From Alcanivorax sp. S71-1-4 (GTDB lineage Bacteria; Pseudomonadota; Gammaproteobacteria; Pseudomonadales; Alcanivoracaceae), in NCBI RefSeq assembly GCF_009846755.1, contig NZ_AQOR01000003.1, positions 62,001-126,000 on the forward strand: a DNA stretch of 64,000 nt. The letters are read 5' to 3'. Below, piece after piece: positions 1,813 to 37,910 of this stretch. The notes beneath the pieces were generated by a model. The model ran no database searches, was not told the DNA's origin, and saw only the letters and a list, made by a program, of their open reading frames with translations. The translations under genes and the position numbers were made by a program. Position 1 is the stretch's first letter, and each line of letters starts with the position of its first letter.

Positions 1813-1904
1813 GGGTCGGGCTCATGCTGGCCGGGGTTGCGGGGCGCGCCTTAACACCGGGCACGCGCAAGGAACGTATCACGTCCACCACCCGAGCGGC
1901 GTGT

Positions 1905-4235: not shown

Positions 4236-4588
4236 GCAGTCTTCCTGTGACCAGGCCGGCCTGACAACCGGCGCTGGATGCCGTCACCGGCTGAACGACG
4301 CCCCAGCACGCCCCCGAATCGCCCATAATGCCTCACACGACGGTCTGTTGCGTACCCCGACATCTGTCGGGTACTGCCTGTTGCGCCCTGTAGCAGTGAT
4401 CACATTGATCCGATGGAGTGAGAGCAAGACAAGGCAGACCGGCGTGCTGGCCCACACTGACGCACGCCGGCCGTTTGATGGCGATGGATGCCGACTGCTG
4501 CGCCGGCCGGGTTCGCGTTCTGGCCAGGTTGCGTGCTGCATCAGGGCGGGCCATCTGGCTCGCCCGGTCGCACAGGTTTGCCGCAGGC
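4236..4588. other. Intergenic region with a palindrome, upstream of the kinase gene
   Basis: This 353-bp gap separates the kinase gene from the end of the exported-protein operon on the same strand. No convincing gene is present. A palindrome CCCGACA-TC-TGTCGGG lies at 4356-4371, flanked by GTAC on both sides (with one extra C on the left). It could be an operator for the two-component operon, whose start is about 120 bp away, or a weak transcription end for the upstream operon. No T-run follows on either side. Confidence 0.45.
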
Positions 4589-7500
4589 TTACAACAGCAG
4601 ACGTGTCAGCAACAGCAACACCAGTGCCGCCACCAGCAGCAGGGCCGCATACAGCAGGTAAAGATGCAGGCACAGCCATAGCAGTATCAGTGCGAGCAGC
4701 GCCAGCAACACTGCCGCCAGCACCAGGTACCCGCGCCGTTTCCGGACCAGCCCGGCTACTGTCAGGACCAGCGCCACCACGATGACCAGTGCGGCCAGCC
4801 AGTGCAGCCAACAGGCTGCCCGTTCGCTGAGATCACAGGCGGCTGTCCCCGTGGGGGTGTAGGGTAGGTCGTCCTCACCATCCGGTATCCCGTCGCCATC
4901 GCTGTCGGGATCCAGGCGGTTGTCGAGGCCGTCACCGTCTATATCACCACGCGGTTCCTCGCCATCCGGGATGCCGTCGTTGTCACTGTCCGGGTCGACG
5001 ACGTTATCGAGTCCATCGCCGTCGGCATCGCGCAGCGGATCACGTTCGCTGCCGTTGTCGGGCGCGTCGGGATCGTACAGCTCTTCACCGTCGGGAATGC
5101 CATCGTTGTCGCTGTCCCGGTCCAGATGATTGGGAATGCCGTCACCGTCTGCATCACCCTGCACTTCGTCTTCGTCGGCCAACCCGTCACCGTCCTGGTC
5201 GCCGGTCTGTATCAGCGGCACGGACAGATCGACGCTGCTGAACGCCGGCCCGGAACAGTCGTCGCCGGGGTAATGGCTGCTGGCCTCCCAGGTGCCGCCT
5301 TCCACCGCCACGTAGGCATCCTCGAAGCAACCGTACTCATCCGTCATCACTTCCCGGTAGACCGGATTGCCTGCCGGGTCCCGGTACCGCACGGTGACCA
5401 TTTCGTTCGGTCGTGGAGGCTGCGTGCACCCCATGGCGCTGAGGATGGCGCATTGTTCAGGCATCTTCTCTGCGTCCAGCAACAACCCCATGCCCGCCAG
5501 CGCCGCCCTGGCTTCGGCATTCTGCCCGTCCTGATATGCGCTCGCGGCCTGTGGCCGGAAGCGTTTCCCGCAATCCCGGACACTGGTGTCCAGCGTCATG
5601 TCGGTACGGCGTCGCAAGCCCACGCTGACCGTCGTGCCACCGACCGGCACCAGTGTGTCGCCACGGGGCATCCAGGCCGTGACATGGATATCGTGATCGG
5701 CGCAGACAGGCGCGTCGTCATTCGGCCGGAGATCCAGCCGCCCCAGATAGCGCTCGCCCGGTGCGACCAGACGCTTGGTGTCTGCAAACTGCTTGTGCCA
5801 GTCCGCCGGGATACCGTCTTCGCGGAAGTAGAACAGTTGCGGCTGTGCCTGTTCATTGACGATCTGGAAGTCGAACGCCACCGGCGTATACGGGCTCGCG
5901 GTGTCGCTGGTGACCACACGCAGGTTCTGCTGCGCCTTGTCGTTGCTGGCATCGGTATCGTTGACCTGACGCCGGATCTCGACGCGCACGCAGTTATGTT
6001 CATCGTCTGCGCCGTCCGGCGTCCAGACGAAGAAGACATCGCGGTATTCCCCCGAGGGAATGCTGCCGATAAAACGGATCGCCCGTTCATCGAAACTGCC
6101 CTCGCCTCCCACCGTGTGGTACGGCTCGGACATCAGGAATTTGACTTCCACATCGTAGGCGGTGGCCGGGCCGCTGTTATGGACGCGCACATAGATACGA
6201 TTCTGTTCGTCGGCAATCGGCTGCTCTTCCCCCGGCCCGGTCGACAATTGCACGGTCTGGTCATACGGGGCATAGCCGTCGCCATCGCGCTGGTTGTCCA
6301 CCCAGATGTCCGGGCTGGTCCAGTGCGGGTCGCCACGGCGCACGTAGAGATCGTATTTATCCGGCGGCGGATCATAATCCACATCGATCAGATAACCGTC
6401 GTTATCGGGCAGCCTGTCCAGCACATCGATATCAATCCCTGTACCTGCCGGCTGAAGGCTGCCGCCCACGGCCAGCGCAGCGTCGTTGATGTGATCGGTG
6501 GAAGGCGTGCCGTCGCGCACCAGCACCGGTGCTTCGCCCTGGGGAATGAGGCGGTTGGCGTAATACACCAGCACACCGTCGGCCGGCACCGGGTCGGTTT
6601 CCGCCAGCGCCGGGCTGCGCGCCTCGATCCAGTAGAAATGATGTTCGGATTCCAGTGTGGTGGCGCCCTCGGTGAGCCCGATGGCCACGGCGGCAATCTG
6701 GTCGGTGTCGATTTCTGCCTGATAGTGCAGCGGGATCGGCGGCTCGCCTTCGCGCTCTGTGCCGGACGGCGGTCGCTGGATATAGAGCACACGTCCGCCA
6801 CGGGACGTGACCCAGGTGGCTTTTTCCTTGGACCAGACCAGCGGGTGCGCACCGTCAAATGGCCGCGCCATATTGTCCCAGTGATCCGCCGTGTGCGTCA
6901 GCAGGCTGTCGACTTCGTCGTGGACGTACAGGTCTTCCAGCAGCAATTGATGCGACAGGCCGTGGGCATACTGCATGGTATTGTTGTCCGGCCCCTGCAC
7001 GGACACCGACAGGAAGCGGGTTTCACCCGCCGCGTCATAGGGCCAGAGGCCGGTCGTGGCCCAGTCACGCTGGAAGGCCGGGTCGTTGACGACGATCACC
7101 ACACGATCGATATCGTCTGCGGCCTCCGCCGTCGCGCCGTCCAGGACGGCTGGCTCTGCCGTGATGAGTTTGTCGAGCACCTCTTCGGCCATTTCCACCA
7201 GCAGGTTGCGGCGGCTGTCCTGATAGTGCGCACTGTCATGATCAAGCGCCACCGGGCCGCGATACAGCGGCACCACTGTGGTCTGGCCGTAGCTGACGCG
7301 TTCGATCCAGGCCGCCGCACCGGTCATGCGGGTTTCGATCATTGCCTGATCGGCGCTGCCGCCGATGCCGCTGAAATCCGCGCGCACTACCAGCGTGTTC
7401 TGCTCACCGATCGGGAACGGGCCGCGTGAAACCGTAACCGGTCGCAGTGCAATATTGTTGTTCTGCCTGACCTGCGCCAGCCCCGGCGCGGAGACGGACG

Positions 7501-8968
7501 GGTCGTGCAGGTTGAGCAGGCGTACCGCGAGATGCACACCTCCGTCTCCGGCCTCGACATCCTCCGGTGCCGGGGGGCGCCACACCAGCGGGCCCACCAC
7601 GGTCATGCTGTCCTGGGTCATCTGCCGGCCTGCAATCGTCGGCAGATACAGCCGGTTATCCGGCGTGTTGGACGAGGACGAGGCATAGGCGCTATAGAAA
7701 CCGCTGTCATGCCAGTCGTCGGGGAATGCCAGCGGCGAAGCCGGGTCTGCCCAGAACAGGCGCGCGGTCACATTGGTGATCGGCTGCTCGCCCCGATTAC
7801 GGACCGCCAGGTACAGATAATTGTTTTCGTCGAAGCGTGGCTGCTGAAAGGCATAGCTGTTGAGGCCGGCGCTGAGCGCGGCGTCCAGGTCGATGTCCGG
7901 ATGGTGACGCACAAGAATATCCGGCGACGACAGCAGATAGCCGCCGTCCGATGGCTGCACGCCGTCGTCGCCGACGTAATCGCGCACATAGGCATCGAAC
8001 GGCGGTGTATAGCCTGCCCCGGGGTACAGCACCACGCGATGCTGCGTGGCATCCAGGGCCAGCACCCGGCCCTCACCATCCAGTGCGATTTTCTGCAGCG
8101 CATCGAACAGGGGCGCACCGCCGAGATGACGATAAAAATCGCCGCTGTCCTCCAGCACGACAATACGGTGGTTATCCGTGTCCGCGACATAGACACGGCC
8201 GTCATCACCGACGGCCACATCGCGGGGGTAACGAAACTGCGCGCTGCCGGTGCCAAAATGACCCAGCGCTGTCTGGGCACCCCCGCCAGCCGGCAGCCGC
8301 AGCACGCGGCTGTTGCCGGTATCCGCCAACCACAAGTCGCCGGCAGTGGTCACATCCAGCCCGTAGGGATTGTTCCAGTCCGCGCCGTCGCGCCAGACAG
8401 CCCAGCTGTCGTCATCGGCGCTGTCCGCCACCAGCACCCGGTTGTTACCGGAATCCAGCAGGTAGACCGTGCCGTCTTCGGCCACGGCAATATCGCGGGG
8501 CATGAGAATGGCGCGGCCGTCCACGGTGGTGCCCGCGCTGGCGAATGCCGCGTCGTGGCTGTAGCTGTCGGCGCCGCTGTCGTAACGAAACAACTGCACC
8601 TGGCCGGCCAACGCATCGACGACAAACACATTGCCGTCGGCATCCACCGCCACACCCTGTGGCTCACGAAACGCGCCCGCCGCCGTCGCGTCTGCGTTAT
8701 AACCGAATTCGTGCCAGGTGTAGGGGCCGGGGAAATCGGCAAGGCTGGTATAGCGGATACGGTGGCTGCCGGTGTCCGCAATCAGCAGACGTTCCCGCGC
8801 CGCGTCCACGGCCATGCCGGTGGGCACCGTCAGGGCGTCGCCGATGATGAAAGGCGGGCCATATTCCAGATCGTCCGCCTGGGCCAGCGGCGCGGCCAGC
8901 AACAGCCCCGCCAGAAACCCCAGCATCCGGACAACGCCGGACATTCCCTGTCCGCAATGCGAAATCAT
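4589..8968 (-). CDS. Giant membrane-anchored exoprotein: NHL propeller, M6-like pseudo-peptidase region, TSP3 repeats, C-terminal hydrophobic anchor
   Basis: This 1459-residue protein has a signal peptide (about 10-31, ending LAQA). An NHL-type beta-propeller (about 35-325) shows repeated units such as YVADTDNHRIVVL. Two extracellular modules begin with the motif SPDI-V (about 345 and 885) and contain NxxYVxVxNxG strands. The middle (about 610-760) resembles an M6/immune-inhibitor-A peptidase: AHGLSHQLLLEDLYV followed by WSKEKATWV. The usual HExxH is HGLSH (about 668-672), so the catalytic Glu is missing. Residues 1255-1365 hold calcium-binding TSP3-like DxDxDG repeats. The C-terminus has two long hydrophobic segments (about 1387-1459) that would anchor it in a membrane. 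It is the last gene of the four-gene PAD operon, 16 bp after its neighbour. Confidence 0.8.
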   Translation of the reverse strand: MISHCGQGMSGVVRMLGFLAGLLLAAPLAQADDLEYGPPFIIGDALTVPTGMAVDAARERLLIADTGSHRIRYTSLADFPGPYTWHEFGYNADATAAGAFREPQGVAVDADGNVFVVDALAGQVQLFRYDSGADSYSHDAAFASAGTTVDGRAILMPRDIAVAEDGTVYLLDSGNNRVLVADSADDDSWAVWRDGADWNNPYGLDVTTAGDLWLADTGNSRVLRLPAGGGAQTALGHFGTGSAQFRYPRDVAVGDDGRVYVADTDNHRIVVLEDSGDFYRHLGGAPLFDALQKIALDGEGRVLALDATQHRVVLYPGAGYTPPFDAYVRDYVGDDGVQPSDGGYLLSSPDILVRHHPDIDLDAALSAGLNSYAFQQPRFDENNYLYLAVRNRGEQPITNVTARLFWADPASPLAFPDDWHDSGFYSAYASSSSNTPDNRLYLPTIAGRQMTQDSMTVVGPLVWRPPAPEDVEAGDGGVHLAVRLLNLHDPSVSAPGLAQVRQNNNIALRPVTVSRGPFPIGEQNTLVVRADFSGIGGSADQAMIETRMTGAAAWIERVSYGQTTVVPLYRGPVALDHDSAHYQDSRRNLLVEMAEEVLDKLITAEPAVLDGATAEAADDIDRVVIVVNDPAFQRDWATTGLWPYDAAGETRFLSVSVQGPDNNTMQYAHGLSHQLLLEDLYVHDEVDSLLTHTADHWDNMARPFDGAHPLVWSKEKATWVTSRGGRVLYIQRPPSGTEREGEPPIPLHYQAEIDTDQIAAVAIGLTEGATTLESEHHFYWIEARSPALAETDPVPADGVLVYYANRLIPQGEAPVLVRDGTPSTDHINDAALAVGGSLQPAGTGIDIDVLDRLPDNDGYLIDVDYDPPPDKYDLYVRRGDPHWTSPDIWVDNQRDGDGYAPYDQTVQLSTGPGEEQPIADEQNRIYVRVHNSGPATAYDVEVKFLMSEPYHTVGGEGSFDERAIRFIGSIPSGEYRDVFFVWTPDGADDEHNCVRVEIRRQVNDTDASNDKAQQNLRVVTSDTASPYTPVAFDFQIVNEQAQPQLFYFREDGIPADWHKQFADTKRLVAPGERYLGRLDLRPNDDAPVCADHDIHVTAWMPRGDTLVPVGGTTVSVGLRRRTDMTLDTSVRDCGKRFRPQAASAYQDGQNAEARAALAGMGLLLDAEKMPEQCAILSAMGCTQPPRPNEMVTVRYRDPAGNPVYREVMTDEYGCFEDAYVAVEGGTWEASSHYPGDDCSGPAFSSVDLSVPLIQTGDQDGDGLADEDEVQGDADGDGIPNHLDRDSDNDGIPDGEELYDPDAPDNGSERDPLRDADGDGLDNVVDPDSDNDGIPDGEEPRGDIDGDGLDNRLDPDSDGDGIPDGEDDLPYTPTGTAACDLSERAACWLHWLAALVIVVALVLTVAGLVRKRRGYLVLAAVLLALLALILLWLCLHLYLLYAALLLVAALVLLLLTRLLL
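4873..5200 (-). repeat. Tandem Asp-rich TSP3-type coding repeats
   Basis: This segment of the 1459-residue protein encodes repeated acidic units, e.g. DADGDGIPNHLDRDSDNDGIPDGEE and near-copies read as DSDNDGIPDGEE and DIDGDGLDNRLD. The spacing is 12-24 codons. At DNA level the units are imperfect repeats of gtcgttgtc/gccgtcatc-like blocks. Thrombospondin type 3 repeats bind calcium and often form a rigid stalk near a surface anchor, which fits the hydrophobic C-terminus that follows. Confidence 0.75.
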
Positions 8969-8984
8969 GCGCGTGCTCTCCCTG

Positions 8985-9941
8985 TCAGTTCTGCGGTGTC
9001 TTTCCGGCGTCTGTGCCTACCGGATTGTTGCGGTAGAACGCCCGCGCTTTCCGCACGATGTCGTCGTCCGCCGTGGCACCGTCTTTTTCCGGCACACGGT
9101 TCAACACCGCGCGCCACCGGGACGCGGTACCGAAATGTTCGGCGTCGGTCAGCAGGCGCTCGGCGTAGGTGGCGGCATTGAGGTAATCCGGCTGCGTCGT
9201 CGGGGCGCCGGATTTTTCGCTGTGCAGGCTGGCCGGCGGGTTGTCGATCAGCGTCACGCTGCGCATCAGCGCCTGCAGGCTGTTTTCGCCCGGCATGCGC
9301 CCGAGAATCTGCAGCAGGTCGTGCTGGCGAAACGCACGCGCCCGGCCCGGAAACGCCTTGTCGCTGGCGGTGGCTTCCACCGCCATCATGACCGCCTGCA
9401 CCGACGCCGGGTTATCAATCGCCACCAGCGCATCCACCATGCGCTGGTTTGCCTGCGGCGCCTGCCCGGCCAGGGGCGGCCGCAACAACCAGTACTCCCA
9501 GGCCAGCCGGTAGGCTTCCGTTGCCTCCGCCGCCGACAAGGGCGGCGCTGCGGGTGCGCGCGCAGCCGGCTCGGCCACTGCTGTCAGGTAGCGTTCGCGC
9601 AAGGCGTCATAGCGGGCGGGAGCATCACGCCGGTCAGCGGCGATCAGCAGCAGTTTCGCTGCCTCCGAGCGGTACTCCTGCGCCCGCGCCTGCGCGACCA
9701 GATCGGCGGATGCCAGCTTCGCCATCTCGCCCAGCGCGGCGTCAAATGCCTCGCCCTGTTTCGCCCGGCCCGCCACATCATGCGGCGGCAGGCTGGCCGC
9801 CTCACGCAGCACTGCGTTGATCCGCGACGCTGCGGCCACGATATTTTCCGGCCACGGCATCTCCGGCTCCTGCGCCACGGCAACCGACATCATCAGTGTG
9901 GCCAGCCACACCAGGCCACATAAATGCATGCATCGCTTCAT
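8985..9941 (-). CDS. Secreted helical protein of unknown function in the PAD operon
   Basis: This 318-residue protein carries a clear signal peptide (CMHLCGLVWLATLMMSVAVAQ). The rest is predicted mostly alpha-helical and rich in Ala and Arg, with a Pro/Ala-rich linker around residues 126-137 (AARAPAAPPLSAAE). Parts such as NPASVQAVMMAVEATAS and QHDLLQILGRMPGENSLQALMRSV look like HEAT-type helical pairs. I do not recognise a family. Its ATG overlaps the stop of the PAD gene (ATGA), and the next gene follows after 16 bp, so it is made together with the deiminase and the NHL protein. It could be a periplasmic adaptor for one of them. That role is a guess from context. Confidence 0.75.
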   Translation of the reverse strand: MKRCMHLCGLVWLATLMMSVAVAQEPEMPWPENIVAAASRINAVLREAASLPPHDVAGRAKQGEAFDAALGEMAKLASADLVAQARAQEYRSEAAKLLLIAADRRDAPARYDALRERYLTAVAEPAARAPAAPPLSAAEATEAYRLAWEYWLLRPPLAGQAPQANQRMVDALVAIDNPASVQAVMMAVEATASDKAFPGRARAFRQHDLLQILGRMPGENSLQALMRSVTLIDNPPASLHSEKSGAPTTQPDYLNAATYAERLLTDAEHFGTASRWRAVLNRVPEKDGATADDDIVRKARAFYRNNPVGTDAGKTPQN

Positions 9942-12900
9942 GGCTGATTACTCCACCAGTCGAGCCCGTAAGGCTGGCGCACCACGTTCGAACCGCAGTG
10001 CACTTCGCCATCCAGACGGTGATACAGGTCCCAGTCGTCGACATATTCCACATTCGGCAACAGGCCACGCATCAGTGCCTCAAAAATATCGTCGCCGCTG
10101 CCGACATCCCGCGCGCCGAACTGGCGCGGGAAATAGTAATGGCCGTTGACAGGCTGGAAGTTCGGAGCGCCCGGTGTAAAGGCAACGCTGAAACGTCCTG
10201 CGTCAAAGCCGGCCCGGGCGCCCACATACAGGGTCGGCACTTCGATATACGCCAAGGGTGCGCCGGCCGCAGCGTCCATCGCGTTGATGACATCCTGAAT
10301 CTTGTTCTGCACCGTAATGAGGTTGAAGTCGTGCATTTCGGTATCATCCAGCACTTCTTCCACCGTAATAAACGCCGGGGCCGGGGCCCTCCAGAGCCGC
10401 GTGTCTTCCACCAGCACATACTTGTCGCCGCTCTGCGGCTGCGCGAACCATCCCATCTGGGAAGGTGGCGCGGTGCGGATGACATTTTCATAGGCATTCG
10501 GATCGCCCGAGCCATCCGGCAGCAGTTTCGCAAACGTGTTCCAGACCCGGCCGATCTCGATAAAACCGTTACCCAGCGTGGTGATTTCCGCCACCTGCCC
10601 GCGTGCACCGGAACCGCTGGCGTCATCGTTATAGATACGCACATACCCCCAGCCTGCGCCGGTATGGTCCACACCGGTTTCCAGCCGTTGCGGATCAATA
10701 CTGTCTGCGGAGGCAGCACCGTCTTCCGGCGCTGCCCCCATGGCAAACAGCACAGACCGGCCACGGTCCGCCACCGGGACGGTTTGCAGCTGCGCCCAGG
10801 CTTCTGCCGGGCTGGCCACGATCACTTCGCCGTCGACCATCGAGAAGCCGAATATTTCGTCGACATGGCTCACGCTCAGCCAGGCGGTAGGCACTTCAAA
10901 CGGAGGCTGTACTTCCTGCGAGGCGAAGAAGTCGAACAGCGCATCCGAGCGCGTATCACCGACGACAATGCGACCGAGCGGGAATGCCGGTGTAGGCGGC
11001 AGCAACTCGACGTTGCCGCCGTAATCGCCCGCGCCGCCACCCACGTCCACGCCCATCTGGAAAATGGCGAAATCCGGCCCGAGCAGACGTGTCTGCATCC
11101 AGGGCGGCTGCGGCCCCGGTGGATTACGCCTGTAAGGCAGGCGCAGGCCGGCCTGCACCTTGGCACCACCCGGGCGCTCGTAGTAGCCCATTTCGCCGTG
11201 GTCCTGGAACCACTGCGAGGCCCCCTCGGCCAGGCCCACCGCCTGCATCTGCGTGGAATGATCCAGCCCGACGTAGCCGGCGTCCGCCGAGGCGGTTTCC
11301 CGGAAACTGGCGTTACCCGGGGTGTCCAGCACCCACACCGATTCCGACGGCTGTGAGTGCGGCAGCATGATCCAGGGTGCCACCTTCATGCGGATCTGGT
11401 CGCTTTCCACGACCGCACCACCGTCACGCAACTCCAGCGTGAAATCGATTTCACCATCGAACGGGTTCACGGCGGACATGCCGACAAAACGGAAAAACAT
11501 GCCTTCCAGCCCGAACGTGACATCGCCACCGGGGCCGCCCCCGACGAAGTCCGGCGACCCGGGATCCACCCACCGGGTAATATCCAGCTCCAGCGGTGGC
11601 GCCGGATCGCCCACACGCCCGCCCAGCGCGCCCCAGATGGCTGTCTCGCCGGCGCTGATCTGCTTGAACACATGCACGGACTCAATGTCTTCCTGCTCCG
11701 CAGCCCGCAGGAACACTTTCACCGATGGCGGCAATGAAGTGCCCGGATTGCGGATCACAAACGGCGTAATGTCCGCTTCATCCGCCGCACCGTTGATCTC
11801 GAAGTCTTCGTGCACCGGGTCGCCGGCATCGTCGAAATGCACCGCATCGGGGATCGGCCGGCCGGCGGCGGTACGACCGCCATCGCGGTCAAGGTTCACG
11901 GCGAAGACAGCGCCCCGCGTCTTGACCCAGGCGTCTTCGCCAGTGTCATCCGCCACGTCGTCGATCAGGCCGTCCCGCGAGGTATCTGCATCCAGATCAA
12001 GCCGCAGTATCTTGACGGTATGCTCGGCACTTTCACCCAGCACGCCGCCGCCACGCAGCGCGCGCAACAGGATGCGGTAATCGCCTGCCGGCACCAGATC
12101 GCCGACATGGTCGGTGCCATTCCATGACAAGGTGCCCGAGGCCACCGTCCCCAGACTGCCTTCCGCCACCACGACATCCGACGCGTCCAGTGCTTCCCAG
12201 GCAACATCGTCCAGCGTGGCGCCCCCGTCGATCTGATATTCGACCTGCACCTGGTCGCTGCCATCCGCCAGGTTTTCCCGCACGACATAATCCGACGAGC
12301 CCGGCAGTATGGACGGCTCCGCCACGGCGATGAGGATGGCGTTGTTTTCCCGGTCACTGATGCCGTGCGGCGTCATCGCCATGTCCACCAGATCAATGTC
12401 GATGCTGTAGCGGCCGGGCCTGGGCCGCTGCCCGGCGCTGCCCCGGCCGTCCCACTTGAATTCCATGCTGCCACCGTGCAGAACGCTGATGACATTCGGG
12501 TCATGGGCGGTATAGAACGGCACCACCGGATCGCTTTCGTGGAATATCCGCAAGCGCGCGAACAGCCCGCCGACGAACAGCGGGTTGTCATAGACCAGGG
12601 AATCCACGTGGTAGTAGATCAGCACATCGGTCCGGTCGGTAAAGTCCTCCACGTGCGGCATCATTTCCAGCGGGAAGTCCACGCACACCAGGCTGTCGCA
12701 ACTGCCGAGGCTGACATACGCCTGCGCATTGCCGGTCTTCGGCACGCTGTCATCGTCCGTGACGGCCAGCCCGATTTCGTAGTAGCCGAGACACACCAGC
12801 GACGGCGAATCCCCGGCGGCATAGAGCTCGAAATCCACCGCGTCGGGCCCGGACGGCGCACTGCCCGGTATGCAACCCGGCGGCACACGCGGCACGCTCC

Positions 12901-15019
12901 AGGCGTAGTCAGTAATGCCGAGGCCAAAGTCCGGCGTCTCGCCCAGCAGCACGTTGTCGTAATCCATACTCAGCAGACCACTGAGCTTCACGTCGCTGCC
13001 CAGCACACCGGCACCGTCCACCGTATAGCGGGAGAACGGCGGCATGATCCATACCCAGGGCGGACCGCCCTCATCAATGACCGACAACTGGAACGTGGCG
13101 GCGTCGGTATTGCCTTCGCCATCTTCCACTTCGAGCTGGAACAACCAGTCACCCGCCACCAAGTCGCCGGGGCCGATGGTCAGCGTCGCACCTTCCGCCG
13201 GCAACCCCAGTGCGTCATCCACCCGGCCGGGCAGATACTCCAACGGTGCGTCATAGGGCACATCCAGCAAGGTCCAGGTGTGGCGGACGATACCCGGCGA
13301 AAGCCCGGAAGGCAGGCCGCCGTCCAGTGTGTCGTGGCAGCGGTAGGCATCGCTTTCACAGGGCGAATCCGGATCCACAGAATCCTCCCCGCTGAGCGTG
13401 ACCGGGAACGACAATGAGCCCACCGTGGACGGCCCGGTGATCTCCGCCTCCGGCAACCCGTCCACCAACACACTGAATTCCTCCGTGACCTCTTCCTGCC
13501 ACGGCGGCAATTCATCATCGGTGACCGTCAGGCGGAACACCCAGGTCCCGGCATCGGCGGCGTCGGTGGACATGATCAGCAACGGCAGCTGATGAAAATC
13601 TTCCTGGACCATCAGTGTCGACGATTGCGGCGCCTGGATGATGCCCCATTTGAATTCAAGACCGCCGCCCTCGGCGTTGTCGGGGTCGTCCACTTCCGTG
13701 GTTTCTATCTGAAGATCGAAACCGGCATCGATTTCTTCATCACCGATCAGGTTGATGTCCGGTGGCAGGTTGTTGACCAGCAGCGAAATGGTGTCGGTAT
13801 CTTCCTCGCCCTCGTCGTCGATAGCCGTGCAGCGGAAGGCCCATTCGCCGATGTCACCTTCTTCGGTCAGAAAGGACAGCGACGAACCGTTGACGATATT
13901 CCCCGCGGCATACTGTCCACCGGGTGGTGCAGCCAGCACCTCCCATTGGAAATCAAGGCTGCCGCCGTCCACATCGTTCGCGGGACTGACAGTCACCTCA
14001 AGCGTCTCCAGTGCATTGATATCCGCTCCCGAGACAGTGATATCCGGCGGGCTACCGATCACACGGAAGGAGGCGGTACGGGAGTGGGTCGAGCCACGCG
14101 GATCCTCGACGGTCAGCCGAACACTCCAGTCTTCCTGTGGCAGATAGTTGTCATCGAACGGGGCATGGACCGTGCTGCCGGAAAAGTCGCTGGTCGAACC
14201 GTCCGGGGCAGTCAGGCGCCAACGATACACCAGCGCGCTCCGGTGCCCGGGGTCCTGATCCGTGGAGGACGTACCATCGAAGGTAATCGAAAAACCTTCA
14301 TGCCCCAGTTGCAGATCCGAGTCAGACAATGACAGCCTGGCTTCAGGACGATGATTGGTACAGGTTGCCTCCACGATATTGCCGATCAGTGAACTCAGCT
14401 CCGGCGCTGACGCGGAGATCGCCTCGCTGAGCGGCGGGCCGCCCGCCGAGTTGGCAATGCTGGACAGCACACCGGACCCCGCACCGATGAAAACCAGCCG
14501 CGACACAACATCCCCGCCGGACAACGCCGCTGCGGCGCTGCCGGAACTGGCGTACGAGGAGACATCCTCGCCATCCGTCATGATGACACCCAGGCGCAAA
14601 TTGCTGCTGCTTCGTGTTCTCAGCGCCGCCGCCGCGTTAATGATCGCATCGTACACCGCTGTGCCGTCGCAGCTATCGATAGGCCCTGACAGATTGGCCA
14701 CGACATTGCCCGGCGATTGCCAGCCCGTTGAAAGATAGGGCGCCGCGCAAAAAGTAAACGCCTGCGCTTCATCAAGGGTGGCACTGGCATCAACCGCCTG
14801 TACCACCTCAATCGCAAAGTCCCGTGCCAGAGCCAGCCGGCTGACGCCGGGCAACACCTCCGCCAACATGCTGGGCGACACATCCATACCAATCAGCAGC
14901 GAGACATCCTTGCGCTCGACACACTCCGCCACCGCGTGCGGAACAGTGCTGGCAGCCATGGCCGCCAGCACTGTCACCACAAGCCTCTGCATACCATGCG
15001 AAAGAAAGAGGCGCGTCAT
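9938..15019 (-). CDS. VWA/PKD/FlgD-Ig protein with C-terminal protein-arginine deiminase (PAD) domain
   Basis: This 1693-residue exported protein has a signal peptide (about 1-31) and a von Willebrand A domain (about 37-220) with the metal-site motif DVSPS at D46/S48/S50. Several PKD-like beta modules follow (about 225-660), then FlgD-Ig-like segments (about 880-1040, e.g. LVPAGDYRILLRAL). Residues about 1090-1693 match the catalytic domain of vertebrate-type PADs, which convert protein arginine to citrulline with calcium. WFQDHGEMGY carries D1273, GPDF follows, WLSVSHVDE carries H1385 and D1387, and YHRLDGEVHCGSNVVRQP carries C1675. These match human PAD4 D350, H471, D473 and C645. The Cys lies about 290 residues after the His, against about 174 in PAD4, so about 115 residues are inserted. 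The start has a GGAGG site and overlaps the upstream stop (ATGA). The substrate is unknown. Confidence 0.88.
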   Translation of the reverse strand: MTRLFLSHGMQRLVVTVLAAMAASTVPHAVAECVERKDVSLLIGMDVSPSMLAEVLPGVSRLALARDFAIEVVQAVDASATLDEAQAFTFCAAPYLSTGWQSPGNVVANLSGPIDSCDGTAVYDAIINAAAALRTRSSSNLRLGVIMTDGEDVSSYASSGSAAAALSGGDVVSRLVFIGAGSGVLSSIANSAGGPPLSEAISASAPELSSLIGNIVEATCTNHRPEARLSLSDSDLQLGHEGFSITFDGTSSTDQDPGHRSALVYRWRLTAPDGSTSDFSGSTVHAPFDDNYLPQEDWSVRLTVEDPRGSTHSRTASFRVIGSPPDITVSGADINALETLEVTVSPANDVDGGSLDFQWEVLAAPPGGQYAAGNIVNGSSLSFLTEEGDIGEWAFRCTAIDDEGEEDTDTISLLVNNLPPDINLIGDEEIDAGFDLQIETTEVDDPDNAEGGGLEFKWGIIQAPQSSTLMVQEDFHQLPLLIMSTDAADAGTWVFRLTVTDDELPPWQEEVTEEFSVLVDGLPEAEITGPSTVGSLSFPVTLSGEDSVDPDSPCESDAYRCHDTLDGGLPSGLSPGIVRHTWTLLDVPYDAPLEYLPGRVDDALGLPAEGATLTIGPGDLVAGDWLFQLEVEDGEGNTDAATFQLSVIDEGGPPWVWIMPPFSRYTVDGAGVLGSDVKLSGLLSMDYDNVLLGETPDFGLGITDYAWSVPRVPPGCIPGSAPSGPDAVDFELYAAGDSPSLVCLGYYEIGLAVTDDDSVPKTGNAQAYVSLGSCDSLVCVDFPLEMMPHVEDFTDRTDVLIYYHVDSLVYDNPLFVGGLFARLRIFHESDPVVPFYTAHDPNVISVLHGGSMEFKWDGRGSAGQRPRPGRYSIDIDLVDMAMTPHGISDRENNAILIAVAEPSILPGSSDYVVRENLADGSDQVQVEYQIDGGATLDDVAWEALDASDVVVAEGSLGTVASGTLSWNGTDHVGDLVPAGDYRILLRALRGGGVLGESAEHTVKILRLDLDADTSRDGLIDDVADDTGEDAWVKTRGAVFAVNLDRDGGRTAAGRPIPDAVHFDDAGDPVHEDFEINGAADEADITPFVIRNPGTSLPPSVKVFLRAAEQEDIESVHVFKQISAGETAIWGALGGRVGDPAPPLELDITRWVDPGSPDFVGGGPGGDVTFGLEGMFFRFVGMSAVNPFDGEIDFTLELRDGGAVVESDQIRMKVAPWIMLPHSQPSESVWVLDTPGNASFRETASADAGYVGLDHSTQMQAVGLAEGASQWFQDHGEMGYYERPGGAKVQAGLRLPYRRNPPGPQPPWMQTRLLGPDFAIFQMGVDVGGGAGDYGGNVELLPPTPAFPLGRIVVGDTRSDALFDFFASQEVQPPFEVPTAWLSVSHVDEIFGFSMVDGEVIVASPAEAWAQLQTVPVADRGRSVLFAMGAAPEDGAASADSIDPQRLETGVDHTGAGWGYVRIYNDDASGSGARGQVAEITTLGNGFIEIGRVWNTFAKLLPDGSGDPNAYENVIRTAPPSQMGWFAQPQSGDKYVLVEDTRLWRAPAPAFITVEEVLDDTEMHDFNLITVQNKIQDVINAMDAAAGAPLAYIEVPTLYVGARAGFDAGRFSVAFTPGAPNFQPVNGHYYFPRQFGARDVGSGDDIFEALMRGLLPNVEYVDDWDLYHRLDGEVHCGSNVVRQPYGLDWWSNQP

Positions 15020-16077
15020 GGTGCACCTCCGTCTCGCTCATCATCCGACCTAATCTGGTGACTCGGTGGTGCCCGATAGAGCGCGCCCGGCAACACAGGC
15101 TGCCCGGACACCTTGCCAGGCAAGGTGTTTTCCTGGACTCGCAGAACCGGCGCACGTGCAGCAGCATGCATGCCCGGCACATCTTGCCTGTCCGTCTCCA
15201 CGGCGAGGTCAGCTTGCGCCCTCAGCGCAAGCAAACGGGCGGACATCGCCTGCACTTCCCGTTGGCGCTGCAAATGCACTGCGGCCCGTGCCGGCGGGAT
15301 TGCCGCCTCTGCCGGTCGGGCATCCTGGCGCACCACCCAGACACCGTCTTCACTGACGATCGGCCCCACCAGGCTACCCACCGGTGAGCCAGCCAGCGCG
15401 TGATAAATCTGCGGATACCGCGACGGGCTGACACCCCCCAGACGCCCTTGGCGCCGGGCAGACTCATGATCGGAATAACGGGAGGCAGCCACGGCCAGCG
15501 ATATCTCGCCGGCTGCCAGCCGGGCCTTGAGTTTTTGCGCACGGGCTTCTGCCTGCCGCCACGCGGCCTCGTCGCCATCGCGCGGCACGGACACCAGCAC
15601 ACCACTGGCCGCCACGGCATTCGTGTCCCGCACACTGCGTTGTCTTGCCAGCCAGGTAGCCACCTCTTCGGCCGTAACAGGTGGCTGGGATGCCGCCACC
15701 ATGGCGCGCAGCAACACGCTGAGTTGCGCAACGTTTTGTTGCGCCGGCTTTTCCGCATCCGTTGCTGCGACCGCGCGCTGCGTGTTTTCCGCCTCGGCAG
15801 TCTGCGCGACGAGGAATTCGTCCACTAACTGCCGCCGGGCCAGTTCACGCAAACGCAACGGGTCCACGCCACCGGTGTGATGAGCACGCAACAACGCAAC
15901 GCGCGCATCCACTTGCGAACGGGTAATGACCTGCTGATTGACACGTGCGTACACAGCGGAAGATGCCGTCGCAGTGTCCTGCGCGGCGGATTGGACAGCG
16001 GGCTGCTCCGGCGTATCCGGAGAACACGCCAGCATGCCCAGGGTGCAACAGAGCACCACGGCAATATGCCTAGACAT
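15016..16077 (-). CDS. SurA/PpiC-like peptidyl-prolyl isomerase lipoprotein
   Basis: This 353-residue lipoprotein has a signal ending in the lipobox LACS, so it is lipidated at about C18. After a disordered linker there is a SurA-like helical N-domain (about 43-150: VYARVNQQVITRSQVDARVALL). A parvulin/rotamase domain follows (about 155-260: VLVSVPRDGDEAAW, GEISLAVAASRYSDHESARRQGRLGGVS, VSEDGVWVVR). The C-terminus is Arg/Gln-rich. The family helps exported and outer-membrane proteins fold in the periplasm. It is the first gene of the operon, and its stop overlaps the start of the 1693-residue deiminase, so it is probably a dedicated foldase for the giant proteins encoded behind it. About 210 bp upstream lies a long hairpin (16285-16327). 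Confidence 0.85.
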   Translation of the reverse strand: MSRHIAVVLCCTLGMLACSPDTPEQPAVQSAAQDTATASSAVYARVNQQVITRSQVDARVALLRAHHTGGVDPLRLRELARRQLVDEFLVAQTAEAENTQRAVAATDAEKPAQQNVAQLSVLLRAMVAASQPPVTAEEVATWLARQRSVRDTNAVAASGVLVSVPRDGDEAAWRQAEARAQKLKARLAAGEISLAVAASRYSDHESARRQGRLGGVSPSRYPQIYHALAGSPVGSLVGPIVSEDGVWVVRQDARPAEAAIPPARAAVHLQRQREVQAMSARLLALRAQADLAVETDRQDVPGMHAAARAPVLRVQENTLPGKVSGQPVLPGALYRAPPSHQIRSDDERDGGAP

Positions 16078-16872
16078 CCTTGTCTACCTCCCCGTTGAGG
16101 AGTTTCAGATTGTGAGAATACTGATCGTCCGAAAACCGATCCCGAGGCGAAAGACTTAACGCCTTTTTTGAGCCGGGTGCAACCGTACCGCCCGGCACAA
16201 CCCAACCAGCTAACCGGAACCTGCAGGTTTCACCAGACCATCAGCCAGACCATCAGAATAAGCCACTGTAACTAAAACCAAATTCGCCGAAACTAAAAAT
16301 GCACCATGGTGCTTTTCTATTTCGGCGTGAAGAAATCTTCACACAGCCATCGTGGCCATTATGTTATCGTGACCGCCTGTTCATGGACGCCGGATACACC
16401 CTGATCCGTCCCGGATTACATATCGGTACAGGAATCCCATGAATCGGCATTCAGCGAACAAGTGTGCTCAGAATCACGATATAAGCGGCATATCGGCGTT
16501 TATTTCCTGTTGCCATTTATCGCCAGACAGCTATGATATCAATTCAATATCAAGCAAATGAATCCATGCTTGGGCACGGGCTCATTCAGACTGACGCAAG
16601 GCAACACGACACAGGAAGTGGTTTGTCAATTAGGTGTGCCGGGATTTTAAGGCGCAACGCTGATTGTCACTTCATGCGTCATGTCACATAACGTGAAGGG
16701 TTTTACCTGATTATTACAGAAAGCCTTACCGAATAGCCGGATATATATCTATTCTTCAACTATCTCCAGTGCTATTCCCTTGAAAAAGACCGCCGGGGAA
16801 CGCGGACACAGACAGGCTGCATGGTTCGGCGCCTGTCTGGTCTGATCGCTAATTCATACAGACCGAAAAAAT
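16078..16872. other. Long AT-rich intergenic region upstream of the PAD operon
   Basis: This 795-bp stretch is clearly lower in GC than its surroundings and contains no convincing gene. It must hold the promoters of the PAD operon (minus strand) and of the small gene at 16873. The one obvious structure is the long inverted repeat at 16285-16327, listed separately. A 40-codon open frame at 16439-16561 follows an AGGAA but has no recognisable features. AT-rich upstream regions of this kind are typical sites for nucleoid-protein silencing. Confidence 0.5.
16285..16327. promoter_or_regulatory. Long near-perfect inverted repeat upstream of the PAD operon
   Basis: The 43-bp element begins CGCCGAAA and ends TTTCGGCG. 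Its centre is the perfect palindrome GCACCATGGTGC, and the A- and T-rich arms between pair with only a few mismatches. It lies about 210 bp upstream of the first gene of the operon. It could be a regulator-binding site or an RNA hairpin in the leader. It does not look like a standard terminator, because the T-rich part lies inside the stem. Confidence 0.5.
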
Positions 16873-17064
16873 ATGGCTATTGTTCTGGACCGTCTGACCG
16901 TCAAACAGCTTCAGGAAGTGATCGCGGACGCTGAAGTGCTGTTAAAAAAACGCCGCGAGCAACAGGCCCGCGCCGAAGCCGAAGCCCGCAAACCAGCCCC
17001 TGTCGACACACCGCACCGGGCACCTGCCATCCAGTATCGCGTTCGCCCCTCGGCACGGGACTGA
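16873..17064 (+). CDS. Small helical, charged protein (H-NS-like N-terminal helix?)
   Basis: This predicted protein has 63 residues. The first half (LDRLTVKQLQEVIADAEVLLKKRREQQARAEAEARK) is a strongly amphipathic, charged helix resembling the oligomerisation helix of H-NS-family proteins. The rest is Pro/Arg-rich and basic (HRAPAIQYRVRPSARD). It lacks the AT-hook-like DNA-binding motif of full H-NS, so the comparison is loose. No good ribosome-binding site precedes the ATG. The gene stands alone behind a long AT-rich region, and the next gene starts 43 bp downstream. It is probably real, given its codon use and the absence of a competing gene. Confidence 0.5.
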   Translation: MAIVLDRLTVKQLQEVIADAEVLLKKRREQQARAEAEARKPAPVDTPHRAPAIQYRVRPSARD

Positions 17065-17106
17065 TTTGGCATTACCCTGTGCAGCATCCTGTCGAGGAGA
17101 CTGCAC

Positions 17107-17445
17107 ATGGACAATTTCAACCGCCACACTGATGACTTCGCCACTTGCGGGCAGATCACGGCAGCGGACATTCCCGCACTCAAGGCGCAGGGTTTCCGCA
17201 CGCTGATCAACAACCGTCCGGATCAGGAAGGTGGCCCGTCGCAACCCGAGAGCGCCGCGCTGGCCGAAGCCGCCACGGCCGCCGGGCTGCACTATATCTA
17301 CCTCCCCGTCATCAGCGGCCAGATCACCGATGAGCAGGCCGCAACCATGCGCCGTGCGCTGGACAGCGCGGAGTATCCCGTGCTCGCGTTCTGCCGCTCG
17401 GGGGCACGTTCCACCCAACTCTGGAACATGGCTCTGTCGCAGTAA
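17107..17445 (+). CDS. TIGR01244/DUF442-type phosphatase-like sulfur transferase
   Basis: This 112-residue cytoplasmic protein belongs to the small dual-specificity-phosphatase-like family known as TIGR01244 or beta-lactamase-hydrolase-like (Blh N-domain). The conserved features are the N-terminal CGQITAADIPAL, the strand FRTLINNRPDQEGGPSQ read as INNRPD-E, YLPV, and the active-site loop FCRSGARS with the nucleophilic Cys at about 98. Relatives act in sulfur or sulfide handling or have unknown substrates. It has a good GAGGAG site before the ATG. A strong hairpin (17451-17480) follows the stop. Confidence 0.88.
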   Translation: MDNFNRHTDDFATCGQITAADIPALKAQGFRTLINNRPDQEGGPSQPESAALAEAATAAGLHYIYLPVISGQITDEQAATMRRALDSAEYPVLAFCRSGARSTQLWNMALSQ

Positions 17446-17450
17446 TCCAT

Positions 17451-17480
17451 TCACCCCGCGCGGTGTTGCGCGCGGGGTGA
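17451..17480 (+). terminator. Strong hairpin after the TIGR01244 gene
   Basis: A perfect 12-bp stem (TCACCCCGCGCG / CGCGCGGGGTGA) encloses a 6-base loop directly after the stop codon. There is no T-run, so it is not a classical intrinsic terminator. It may block 3' exonucleases or act with Rho. Confidence 0.5.
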
Positions 17481-17505
17481 CATCCGTCCGCAGACGCCCT
17501 AGCCT

Positions 17506-19203
17506 ATGCGGATGACTATACATACGGACAGTATTTCTTCCGATACCTCTCCCGCCCTGCCGGCCCCCGCCGCGCTGGATGATCCGTATTATTACCTGCA
17601 TAACTTCCACACCGCCCTGGACTGGGTGGGCACGCGCTATGCCGATCTGCTGGGTACAGAAGAGCAGGCATTCATTGGCTGTTTTGCGACGCTGCCGCGA
17701 CCGGCGCAAGCGTTGCTGGTACGCATGGTCATGCGCAAGGGCACGCTGTTCCGGATCGGCAAACTGCGCTATCCCGAGATCGGTGACATTCCCGCCGCCA
17801 TGGCCGCACTGTGCGCAACGAACTGGGTGATCGACGACCCGGACATTTCCCTGACGGACCTGTTTTCCGTGCTGACGCGCCCCGAATTACAGCGGGCATT
17901 CGGCAAGCACCTGCCCGCCGGCCGCAAGGCGGAACAACTCGCGGCGCTGGCGGCGGACGAACCGGCAGCACGCCCGTTATCGCGCTGGGCACCCTCGCTG
18001 CACGACACCCTGTACGCACTGACCATCATGCCGCTGTGCGACCGGCTGCGGCTGATGTTCTTCGGCAATCTGCACCAGGACTGGTCAGAGTTCGTGCTCG
18101 CGGAGCTCGGTGTCTACCGCTATGAAACCGTGCCGGTGGACCAGCACTCCCGCGCGTTCCACGATGCCGCCGATATTGACCTTGGACTGCGCCTGCACGC
18201 CTGCCGCGAGGCGCTGGACGCGGGCACACCGGTGGCCGACGTGCTGGCACAACTGCCGCAGGGCGACGCAGGGACCGACTGGCTGCAGGCACGCCGTGAG
18301 CGCCTGTTGTTCCGGCTTGGACAGCAGGCGGAAAAAGATCAGGATTTTGATACCGCACTGGCGATTTATCCCGCCTGCCGATGGCCCGGCGCCCGGGCGC
18401 GGCATATCCGGGTGCTGGAACGTTGCGGCCATGACCGTGATGCACTGACACTGGCGCGGCACGCCTGGCAACAACCAGAGAACGATGCCGAGCAGCAACA
18501 ACTGACACGCATGATGCCGCGCCTGCAACGCCGCCTTGGCGAACCGGTCGAGCGCACCGCCCGGCCAGCGCCGCCGGCAGAGCAGGTGTTGATACTGCCC
18601 CGCCCGGACGTACCGCAACCGGTGGAATATGTGGTGCGCGATCATCTGCACAGCGATGACGCGCCCGTGTACTACGTCGAGAACACCTTGATCACCGGCC
18701 TGTTCGGCCTGCTGTGCTGGCAGGCCCTGTTCACCCCCTTGCCCGGCGCGTTCTTTCACCCGTTTCATCATGCGCCGGCCGATTTGCTGCAAGCGGATTT
18801 CTATCCGCGCCGGCAAGCGCTGTTCGACGCCGCCCTGGCCGAGCTGGACGACACCCGCTGGCGCGAGACCATACGCCGGCATTTTCATGAAAAATCGGGG
18901 ATACAGAATCCCTTTGTATTTTGGGGCGCGCTGGACGCCACATTGCTTGAACAGGCGCTGGCCTGCCTGCCGCCCGCGCATCTCGCACTCTGGTTCCGGC
19001 GCCTGCTGCGGGATATTCGGGCGCACCGCGCCGGCATGCCGGACCTGATCCGCTTCTACCCCGATGAACACCGCTACGACATGATCGAGGTAAAAGGCCC
19101 CGGTGATCGCCTGCAGGACAACCAGCGACGCTGGCTTGCGTTCTGCGCCGAACATCGCATGCCGGTGAGCGTCTGTTACCTGCGCTGGGCGGATGACACA
19201 TGA
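17506..19203 (+). CDS. fan1: FAN1-type structure-specific nuclease (VRR-NUC domain)
   Basis: This 565-residue protein has the size and layout of Pseudomonas FAN1, which trims DNA flaps and helps unhook interstrand crosslinks. The N-terminal part (about 20-150: YYYLHNFHTALDWVGTRYADLL) is the DNA-binding/SAP-like region, and helical TPR-like repeats follow (about 200-380). The C-terminal VRR-NUC domain (about 450-560) has GMPDLI with D513 and IEVKGPGD with E528 and K530. The D-to-E spacing of 15 is the same as in Pseudomonas FAN1. The ATG at 17506 is followed by another at 17512; neither has a strong ribosome site. The stop overlaps the helicase start (ATGA), so nuclease and helicase are made together. 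Confidence 0.92.
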   Translation: MRMTIHTDSISSDTSPALPAPAALDDPYYYLHNFHTALDWVGTRYADLLGTEEQAFIGCFATLPRPAQALLVRMVMRKGTLFRIGKLRYPEIGDIPAAMAALCATNWVIDDPDISLTDLFSVLTRPELQRAFGKHLPAGRKAEQLAALAADEPAARPLSRWAPSLHDTLYALTIMPLCDRLRLMFFGNLHQDWSEFVLAELGVYRYETVPVDQHSRAFHDAADIDLGLRLHACREALDAGTPVADVLAQLPQGDAGTDWLQARRERLLFRLGQQAEKDQDFDTALAIYPACRWPGARARHIRVLERCGHDRDALTLARHAWQQPENDAEQQQLTRMMPRLQRRLGEPVERTARPAPPAEQVLILPRPDVPQPVEYVVRDHLHSDDAPVYYVENTLITGLFGLLCWQALFTPLPGAFFHPFHHAPADLLQADFYPRRQALFDAALAELDDTRWRETIRRHFHEKSGIQNPFVFWGALDATLLEQALACLPPAHLALWFRRLLRDIRAHRAGMPDLIRFYPDEHRYDMIEVKGPGDRLQDNQRRWLAFCAEHRMPVSVCYLRWADDT

Positions 19204-21530: not shown

Positions 21531-21556
21531 AACTGTCACAATGAATCGCATATCCT
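21527..21556 (+). promoter_or_regulatory. Probable sigma-70 promoter of the DAHP synthase leader
   Basis: TTGAAA (21527-21532), which overlaps the stop codon of the helicase gene, is followed after 18 bp by TATCCT (21551-21556); after 16 bp CATATC is an alternative. Transcription would start near 21563, just before the leader peptide's GGAG at 21571-21574. Confidence 0.55.
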
Positions 21557-21584
21557 GCTTCAGACGTTTGGAGCGCAACACACC

Positions 21585-21707
21585 ATGATCACTTTACGTA
21601 CCACATCGCTGACGCAGATCGCCGCCCCGGTGGCCGGTGCGCGGCCGTGCGTGTCGTCTCCGAACAGCTATTTCTACGGGTATTGGTTTAGCCACTGGCG
21701 CGCCTGA
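21585..21707 (+). CDS. Aromatic-rich leader peptide of the DAHP synthase attenuator
   Basis: This 40-codon open frame has GGAG eight bases before its ATG. Its last 13 residues are SYFYGYWFSHWRA: three Tyr, two Phe and two Trp within 10 codons, just before the stop. Such runs of codons for the end-product amino acid are the hallmark of leader peptides that sense charged tRNA. The frame lies between a promoter and a terminator upstream of the gene for the first enzyme of aromatic amino-acid synthesis. The presence of all three aromatics suggests that shortage of any of them would stall the ribosome. The stop codon lies in the first of two overlapping hairpins. It is too short for routine gene calling. 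Confidence 0.88.
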   Translation: MITLRTTSLTQIAAPVAGARPCVSSPNSYFYGYWFSHWRA

Positions 21708-21741
21708 TACCCGCACAGGCGCCCAGCACACGGGACGCCTG
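21700..21741 (+). promoter_or_regulatory. Mutually exclusive hairpins of the attenuator
   Basis: GCGCCTG (21700-21706), spanning the leader stop codon, can pair with CAGGCGC (21716-21722). The same CAGGCGCCC block (21716-21724) can instead pair with GGG-A-CGCCTG (21732-21741). Only one can form at a time, as in trp-type attenuators, where the ribosome's position on the leader peptide decides. How the second hairpin affects the terminator at 21758-21790 is not evident from simple pairing. Confidence 0.6.
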
Positions 21742-21757
21742 ACGGATGCAACACTTG

Positions 21758-21790
21758 AAAACCCCCGGTCGGCTTCCCGCCCGGGGGTTT
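21758..21790 (+). terminator. Intrinsic terminator of the DAHP synthase leader (attenuator)
   Basis: The stem AAACCCCCGG / CCGGGGGTTT (21758-21767 with 21781-21790) is followed by further T residues (TTTTTCG). It lies between the leader peptide and the structural gene, about 60 bp before the ATG of DAHP synthase, so it would end transcription early unless prevented. Confidence 0.88.
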
Positions 21791-21848
21791 TTCGTTTCCG
21801 GGCCTGGTGGGCAGCACAACGACGACACAGCATGAATAAGGACAGGAC

Positions 21849-22883: not shown

Positions 22884-23048
22884 GGTGGGTAGAGCCAAAG
22901 GCGAAACCCACCGTGTCCATGCAGCACACTGCTCGCACGAAACCATCGAAACTACCTACCTCCGAGGCAGGGCAGTTTCGATGGTTTTGCGGGAGTGATT
23001 AACGGGCATGGACCTGGTGGGTTTCGCCTTTGGCTCTACCCACCCTAC
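22880..23048. repeat. MITE-like palindromic repeat, copy 1
   Basis: This 169-bp element has terminal inverted repeats of about 33 bp beginning GTAGGGTGGGTAGAGCCAA and ending with its reverse complement. Inside are shorter inverted blocks (CCATCGAAA ... TTTCGATGG) and a common block containing GGAGTGATTAACGGGCATGG. Related copies lie at 44648-44894 and 51115-51282. It fills the gap between two converging genes, and the TAG at each tip is the stop codon of the neighbouring gene. It has no coding capacity, so it would be mobilised, if at all, by an enzyme encoded elsewhere. It may also act as a two-way transcription end. Confidence 0.9.
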
Positions 23049-23860: not shown

Positions 23861-23941
23861 GCGCTGCTCTCCGCTGTTGTGCTGTCGGCCCTCACCCTAC
23901 GGCGCGTCATGGCGGCTGTATTGACCATTCACGCCGTGGCG

Positions 23942-37898: not shown

Positions 37899-37910
37899 CC
37901 CTGTTCCCCT

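Follow-up and report, generated by a model that had tools for sequence, protein, structure and literature searches.

The gene and its PAD unit

In this study, we describe a gene in a stretch of 64,000 nucleotides from Alcanivorax sp. S71-1-4 (contig NZ_AQOR01000003.1, positions 62,001 to 126,000). The whole stretch is called the window, and positions are counted from its first letter. The gene lies on the minus strand and encodes a protein of 1693 amino acids, whose C-terminal unit belongs to the protein-arginine deiminase (PAD) family. From the N-terminus, the layout is a predicted signal peptide, a probable von Willebrand A (VWA) domain (33-222), PKD/Ig-like modules (about 223-660), an unassigned part, a FlgD-Ig module (918-988), a PAD middle-domain-like part (about 1005-1194) and the PAD catalytic domain (1195-1693). 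Codon-position G+C was coding-like all along the frame. The features of the gene are as follows.

9938..15019, minus strand: whole gene, VWA/PKD/FlgD-Ig/PAD protein with signal peptide, 1693 aa, ATG start
9941..11437, minus strand: PAD catalytic domain, residues 1195-1693 (PF03068; Foldseek to PAD4, PAD3, PAD2 and PAD1)
11201..11203, minus strand: D1273, equivalent to PAD4 D350 (D in 63/63 PAD rows)
10865..10867, minus strand: H1385, equivalent to PAD4 H471 (H in 62/63 PAD rows)
10859..10861, minus strand: D1387, equivalent to PAD4 D473 (D in 63/63 PAD rows)
9995..9997, minus strand: C1675, equivalent to PAD4 C645, the nucleophile (C in 62/63 PAD rows)
10361..10783, minus strand: insertion in the catalytic domain, about 140 residues, about 1413-1553 (largely without counterpart in the 21 further rows of alignment A3)
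11438..12007, minus strand: PAD middle-domain-like part, residues 1005-1194 (alignments by eye)
12056..12268, minus strand: FlgD Ig-like module, residues 918-988 (PF13860, 39.2 bits, cut-off 27; also in the ortholog)
13040..14353, minus strand: PKD/Ig-like modules, residues 223-660 (Pfam whole-protein scores)
14354..14923, minus strand: probable VWA domain, residues 33-222 (phmmer to BatB; VWA_2 below cut-off)
14927..15019, minus strand: predicted Sec signal peptide, residues 1-31, AVA/E (by eye; crude signal rule positive)

An earlier note made from the letters alone (the sequence-only reading) had placed a PAD at the C-terminus, with the catalytic tetrad D1273, H1385, D1387 and C1675 and the GPDF and WW motifs. 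Pfam scored PF03068 at 139.6 bits over the whole protein (cut-off 25, E=1.8e-40), and the two PF03068 matches of the genome both fall within this gene. The phmmer search against the PDB at E<=1 returned 29 distinct sequences, namely 27 PADs and two VWA proteins, with PAD3 as the best (5.8e-31). The fetched loci gave 85 PAD frames, of which 63 were aligned and 22 were left out as overlapping or near copies. The numbered alignment confirmed the tetrad, GPDF (1314-1317) and WW (1688-1689), and W1270, Q1272, E1276 and H1674 are kept as well. The sole exception at the His position and at the Cys position is one and the same protein, L014 (seen in the 22-row alignment). This PAD (L014:642-2267) carries Gln for the catalytic His and Ser for the catalytic Cys, and is a candidate for a natural pseudo-PAD.

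Residues 989-1693 were modelled by AlphaFold2 together with 21 relatives. Every one of the 50 PDB matches that Foldseek listed for the model was a PAD, the best with E=9.9e-40, and TM-scores by target length ran from 0.63 to 0.70. The predicted fold matches that of PADs. Judged from sequence and predicted fold, the C-terminal unit is confirmed as a PF03068-type PAD with the catalytic tetrad, carried on a multi-module protein.

The positions of PAD4 Q349, E353 and E411, which we take to be Ca1 ligands, are occupied by Q1272, E1276 and E1338. Excerpts of PMC3559651 give N153, D155, D157, D165, D176, D179 and D388 as the Ca3/Ca4 ligands of PAD4 and D168, E170 and residue 252 as those of Ca5, and describe D155, D157 and D179 as essential to catalysis. 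By eye, nine of these ten positions are identical in the window protein (N1042, D1044, D1046, D1080, D1083, D1316, D1072, E1074 and E1172), the three essential ones among them, and the position of D165 is V1069. The alignment is gapped over 1069-1080, where D1072 and E1074 are the least certain. The calcium-switch Asp (PAD2 D389, PAD4 D388) corresponds to D1316. According to excerpts of PMC8826395, fungal and actinobacterial PADs carry Gly in place of the switch Asp and are divergent at Ca sites 2 and 4. D1316 is not decisive for membership of clade A, the group of animal and cyanobacterial PADs in that paper, because the Streptomyces row also has Asp. Pfam found neither a PAD_M nor a PAD_N match in the window protein. 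The lack of PAD_N need not speak against clade A, because its cyanobacterial members have no PAD_N by Pfam either in the excerpts of PMC8826395.

The modules in front of the PAD unit were recognised less firmly than the PAD unit itself. The stretches that passed a Pfam cut-off individually were PF03068 (two) and FlgD_ig (one), and no others. K319L-like_PKD (47.7 bits) and Big_9 (27.8 bits) exceeded their cut-offs as whole-protein scores, neither having one stretch that passes alone, while PKD_4 (22.5 bits) and REJ (18.9 bits) stayed under theirs. NCBIfam matches were weak, below cut-off and confined to the N-terminal and FlgD-like parts. Residues 1-222 matched the VWA protein BatB by phmmer against the PDB (E=1.5e-5). 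A pattern DxSxS...T...D, which we assume to be the metal ion-dependent adhesion site (MIDAS) motif of VWA domains, is formed by D46, S48, S50, T120 and D149, and by eye it is readable in the ortholog too. Against the VWA assignment, VWA_2 reached 17.5 bits in the whole protein (cut-off 27), Pfam at the loose threshold of E<=1 still gave no VWA match for the ortholog, and single-sequence structure prediction of the region was uninformative, with a predicted local distance difference test score (pLDDT) of 41. The N-terminal VWA domain is kept as probable because of the match to BatB.

Distribution and relatives of the PAD

The ortholog lies in a one-contig genome (G374). Over residues 29-1693 it shares 79% identity with the window protein, and architecture and gene order are the same. 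The PAD gene occurs in 2/7 genomes of the genus, this one included (1/6 others). When 57 relatives were searched, four had any match and two of these were full-length. The match in G412 was rejected as a PKD-rich repeat lipoprotein without PAD (by eye), and that in G421 as a short alignment of the FlgD-Ig region only. PADs are rare in the surrounding taxa: with the own genome included, they were found in 2/369 genomes sampled from the class (the other being G301) and in 2/390 from the order (the other being G374). The phylum sample gave 2/299 genomes at E<=0.001, of which its own genome alone was over the cut-off. The PAD of G301 places near those of Vibrio and Bowmanella. The ratio of non-synonymous to synonymous change (dN/dS; Nei-Gojobori script) between the window protein and the ortholog was 0.04 for residues 1001-1194, 0.15 for 1195-1412, 0.10 for 1413-1540 and 0.12 for 1541-1693. 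This indicates that the PAD unit is under purifying selection. A viral or phage origin was also considered and rejected: 28 IMG/VR stretches matched the search pattern with none confirmed as a relative, and no relative was confirmed in phage records. Plasmid records held one PAD, from Streptomyces (WP_320592483.1).

The sequence-only reading had called the domain vertebrate-type. Relatives were gathered in part by a pattern scan of an 84,980-species collection, which gave 30 loci from 92 stretches; the scan needs exact short peptides, missed most myxococcal PADs and is no census. A 42-row tree was built from 41 of the 63 rows and human PAD4, with two rows dropped for long branches, 20 for thinning, and the insertion removed. 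Human PAD4 grouped with cyanobacterial PADs (98/96), and the larger clade that holds them (95/91) did not contain the window protein and its ortholog. The stem of this pair measured 2.0 changes per column, and its placement beside the Myxococcota/Streptomyces PADs was weakly supported (85/63). When all 63 rows of the catalytic domain were used and human PAD4 was left out, the tree put the pair beside the same myxococcal group (94/73; stem 2.28). Constraining the pair with the PAD4 clade was not rejected by the approximately unbiased test (p-AU 0.295). Overall, the term holds for the PF03068 family, whereas the branch and the replaced Ca2 loop described below do not bear it out.

Export was also assessed among PADs of Myxococcota, the phylum of Plesiocystis. 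PF03068 matched in 71/282 genomes of this phylum, a count that includes the centre genome and one or more others already known to be positive. When a crude lipobox rule was applied to 38 myxococcal PADs, 29 were called lipoproteins, three had Sec-like starts and six had neither; these 38 come from the fetched Myxococcota loci (among L037, L038, L040 and L047-L091), mostly best-scoring and not random. The same rule made lipoprotein calls in 0/24 clade-A-like PADs and in 1/4 of a mixed group. An earlier, first signal rule had called 27/73 PAD rows of all groups lipoproteins. The looser 'Sec' class of the signal rule was positive for the window protein and the ortholog (2/2), yet it also flags 5/24 clade-A-like PADs and misses the Streptomyces protein, which is Sec-like by eye. 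These calls suggest that export alone is not unique to the window PAD and that exported PADs seem common in Myxococcota. Most of the PADs that stand weakly nearest in the trees are predicted lipoproteins, which was counted in support of an exported enzyme. In PMC8826395, no word that starts with 'Myxo', 'Deltaproteobacteria' or 'secreted' occurs in the main text.

The modular front part was not seen elsewhere among the PADs scanned. In 17 distinct non-window PADs, Pfam (E<=0.01) found VWA in none and PKD in none; Somatomedin B was found in four of the 17 (L053, L056, L058 and L081). Of nine myxococcal frames scanned, four carry it. Among the 85 frames, more than 400 residues ahead of the PAD were present in the window-type proteins and in L078, L079 and L080 only. 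These three (1706, 1275 and 1053 aa, Myxococcota) were rejected as further fusions, their frames being over-extended. Codon-position G+C shifts ahead of the PAD in 3/3, Pfam is otherwise empty, and a lipoprotein signal lies shortly ahead of the PAD in 2/3 by the second rule and in the third by the first rule only. In open-licence PMC articles searched by title and abstract, no PAD joined to VWA or PKD and no myxococcal PAD was described, which agrees with the earlier note that had known of no account of such a fusion.

Two further observations were made on the collected PADs. A second PAD of Symploca sp. SIO2E9 (L046:3191-6439) has 1083 aa with about 380 residues ahead of the PAD, in which Pfam found PAD parts only. 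In Methanophagales (L034:3642-6952, L035:347-3641 and L036:6362-9665), the PAD comes shortly after a protein-glutamine gamma-glutamyltransferase-like (Tgl-like) gene, so that these loci pair a citrullinating with a cross-linking enzyme. The L034 copy scored 329.5 bits against 307 for NF002869, and tblastn matched the gene in L034, L035 and L036; it was not found by tblastn in the other fetched loci or the window. Over 3.7-5.3 kb, the surroundings of the three PADs agree at 92-94%, and KsgA lies near in L036 and, by eye, in L034. The single Methanophagales PAD then known was judged misattributed in excerpts of PMC8826395, and the context shared by three records speaks against that view.

Gene neighbourhood and the divergent block

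The PAD gene is closely packed with its neighbours, which are listed here with a block that differs between the two species.

15016..16077, minus strand: PpiC/SurA-type peptidyl-prolyl isomerase, probable lipoprotein (PF00639, 39.6 bits; lipobox by eye; SurA_N_3 in the ortholog)
8985..9941, minus strand: 318-aa protein, signal-like N-terminus by eye (no Pfam or NCBIfam match; 87% identical in G374)
4589..8968, minus strand: NHL-repeat/CARDB protein of 1459 aa, carrying Asp-rich repeats and, at the C-terminus, hydrophobic segments (95% identical in G374)
13868..15884, minus strand: block unalignable between the two species by blastn, about 2 kb, covering VWA, the first PKD modules and PpiC past about its first 64 residues

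The PpiC gene lies upstream and shares 4 bases with the start of the PAD gene; the 318-aa gene, downstream, shares 4 bases with its stop. The NHL gene follows 16 bases past the 318-aa gene and is, like the PAD gene, present in 2/7 genomes of the genus; then come a histidine kinase and a LuxR-type regulator. A promoter scan gave three promoter-like sites against 4.5 expected, and none on the minus strand.

The gene order is kept in G374, with protein identities of 99% (regulator), 97% (kinase), 95% (NHL), 87% (318-aa), 77% (PAD) and 42% (PpiC). By blastn, 1207-13867 matched at 92% and 15885-24955 at 89%, with nothing in between. Along the PAD protein, amino-acid identity was 28% for residues 1-222, 48% for 223-384, 93% for 385-660, 80% for 661-1000 and 90-97% for the PAD unit. 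Synonymous change was saturated in 1-384, and dS was 0.79 in 385-660, 0.51 in 661-1000 and 0.25-0.38 in the PAD unit, so that synonymous divergence fades gradually past the block with no sharp edge. We prefer the reading that the block was replaced by recombination, perhaps more than once, over fast divergence in place. From the two genomes, we infer that head and foldase must match. A bolder proposal is that of a retargetable extracellular PAD, in which a fixed engine is combined with a VWA/first-PKD head and foldase cassette swapped between species, giving a lineage-specific target surface. This proposal is doubtful, and its odds were lowered because dS declines gradually beyond the block.

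Other parts of the window also hold unusual features. The related stretches 22880-23048, 44648-44900 and 51114-51283 all hit a single place in G374, in some cases in both orientations; they probably represent an intergenic repeat that has dispersed. Four very large genes next to each other (27305-44441, minus strand; 1056, 1409, 1066 and 2176 aa) have few recognisable domains (PKD, cadherin-like, Calx-beta) and, by eye, two lipobox-like starts. A 1020-aa frame (60851-63913, minus strand) has a match to the hydrazine synthase alpha middle domain (PF18582, 62.8 bits) and PD40 repeats. A FAN1-type VRR-NUC nuclease gene overlaps a DEAD_2/Helicase_C_2 (DinG-like) gene at 17506-21530 (plus strand).

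Proposed mechanism, alternatives and known systems

We believe that the protein is probably an exported, calcium-dependent protein-arginine deiminase on a modular stalk, its activity being predicted. The signal peptide would direct Sec export. The co-encoded PpiC-type lipoprotein probably aids folding in the periplasm, because the genes overlap and the PAD head and PpiC diverge together. A type II secretion system may then carry the protein outside; the genome encodes a GspD secretin (532.9 bits against 351.35, in a search limited to GspD). The VWA head would probably bind a partner surface or protein through its metal-binding pattern, with the PKD/Ig modules as a spacer. The PAD unit is expected to bind calcium at sites that resemble Ca1 and Ca3-Ca5 of PAD4. 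By the chemistry of the family, it could convert nearby protein arginines to citrulline, C1675 acting as the nucleophile with the help of D1273, H1385 and D1387.

Several points weigh against this reading. The AlphaFold2 model has moderate confidence (mean pLDDT 67.3, predicted template modelling score (pTM) 0.72), residues 1427-1548 are below 50, and pLDDT is about 53 around C1675. The large insertion within the catalytic domain has no recognised fold, and residues 1413-1553 had no sequence match in the PDB. The window pair branches off on a very long stem, at 2.0-2.3 changes per column in the two trees, and VWA_2 stays below its cut-off. Of E351, D369, S370 and N373, presumably the Ca2 ligands of PAD4, the first is H1274 in the window protein, and the D369-S370-N373 loop is replaced. 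Because of both changes, the second active-site calcium, as read from the alignment, cannot bind as in PAD4. Passage of the protein beyond the periplasm is a prediction.

The same enzyme could instead remain in the periplasm, where the lipoprotein foldase and the operon's NHL protein would hold it close to a membrane, and citrullinate envelope proteins of its own cell. This differs from export to the outside in the final place only, so the odds of the two overlap, and we hold it to be possible though clearly the less likely. The 4-base overlaps of the PpiC and 318-aa genes with the PAD gene, the NHL gene 16 bases further, the hydrophobic segments at the end of the NHL protein and the lack, by eye, of a C-terminal sorting signal on the PAD protein all fit a periplasmic enzyme. 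The encoded type II secretin argues the other way, as do the VWA/PKD modules, which typically occur in proteins that are secreted or lie at the surface.

It is unlikely that the PAD unit lacks turnover and serves as a calcium-dependent binding module. The replaced Ca2 loop with His at the E351 position, the long stem and the L014 PAD with its catalytic His and Cys replaced would suit such a pseudo-enzyme, and human PAD6 is an inactive relative (PMC11067741, in excerpt). However, the tetrad and W1270, Q1272, E1276 and H1674 are kept under purifying selection, and the fungal and actinobacterial PADs of PMC8826395 also diverge at Ca sites 2 and 4. A still smaller chance is given to a substrate other than proteins at large, namely small guanidines such as free arginine or agmatine, or else a single small peptide dedicated to the enzyme. 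The loop on the substrate side is remodelled, and a lasso peptide is the substrate of a Streptomyces PAD (PMC12971885, in excerpt), whereas the 50 fold matches listed were all protein-PADs and a binding head on a long stalk suits large substrates. An assembly or annotation artefact joining two genes, suggested by the unusual architecture alone, can be practically dismissed, as it is contradicted by the same fusion in the one-contig ortholog genome and by reading-frame constraint across residues 385-1693.

The window protein joins a PAD of the animal family to a predicted exported, adhesin-like architecture in a bacterium. Citrullination has mostly been studied in animals and in one oral bacterium with an enzyme of another type. 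The protein opens the question of citrullination of proteins outside the bacterial cytoplasm, and its purpose. If it is true that head and foldase swap together, this would also show how such an enzyme is aimed.

Generally, the known systems resemble the window protein in parts. PPAD of Porphyromonas is an exported peptidyl-arginine deiminase with an Ig-like part and type IX export. The window protein is predicted to share the export, the deiminase activity and the Ig-like part, but the enzyme type differs, PPAD being a phyletically distinct type in excerpts of PMC8826395. The type IX export of PPAD is a further difference. The clade A PADs (PAD4, cyanoPADI; Cummings et al. 2021, PMC8826395) share the PAD fold, the tetrad, the Ca1 side-chain ligands and most Ca3-Ca5 positions, and the clade A PAD of Cyanothece is active and strictly calcium-dependent (same excerpts). 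Unlike them, the window protein has a signal peptide, VWA/PKD/FlgD-Ig in front and a replaced Ca2 site, and stands on a separate branch, although joining was not rejected. The exported two-domain PADs of Myxococcota and Streptomyces mostly have export signals, are non-Glu at the E351 position in the rows displayed and are weakly nearest in the trees. In contrast to the window protein, they have a real length of about 550-900 aa, are mostly lipoproteins and carry no VWA/PKD in those scanned. The citrulassin PAD of Streptomyces, with its lasso peptide target, provides the comparison of a bacterial PAD whose peptide substrate is known (PMC12971885, in excerpt).

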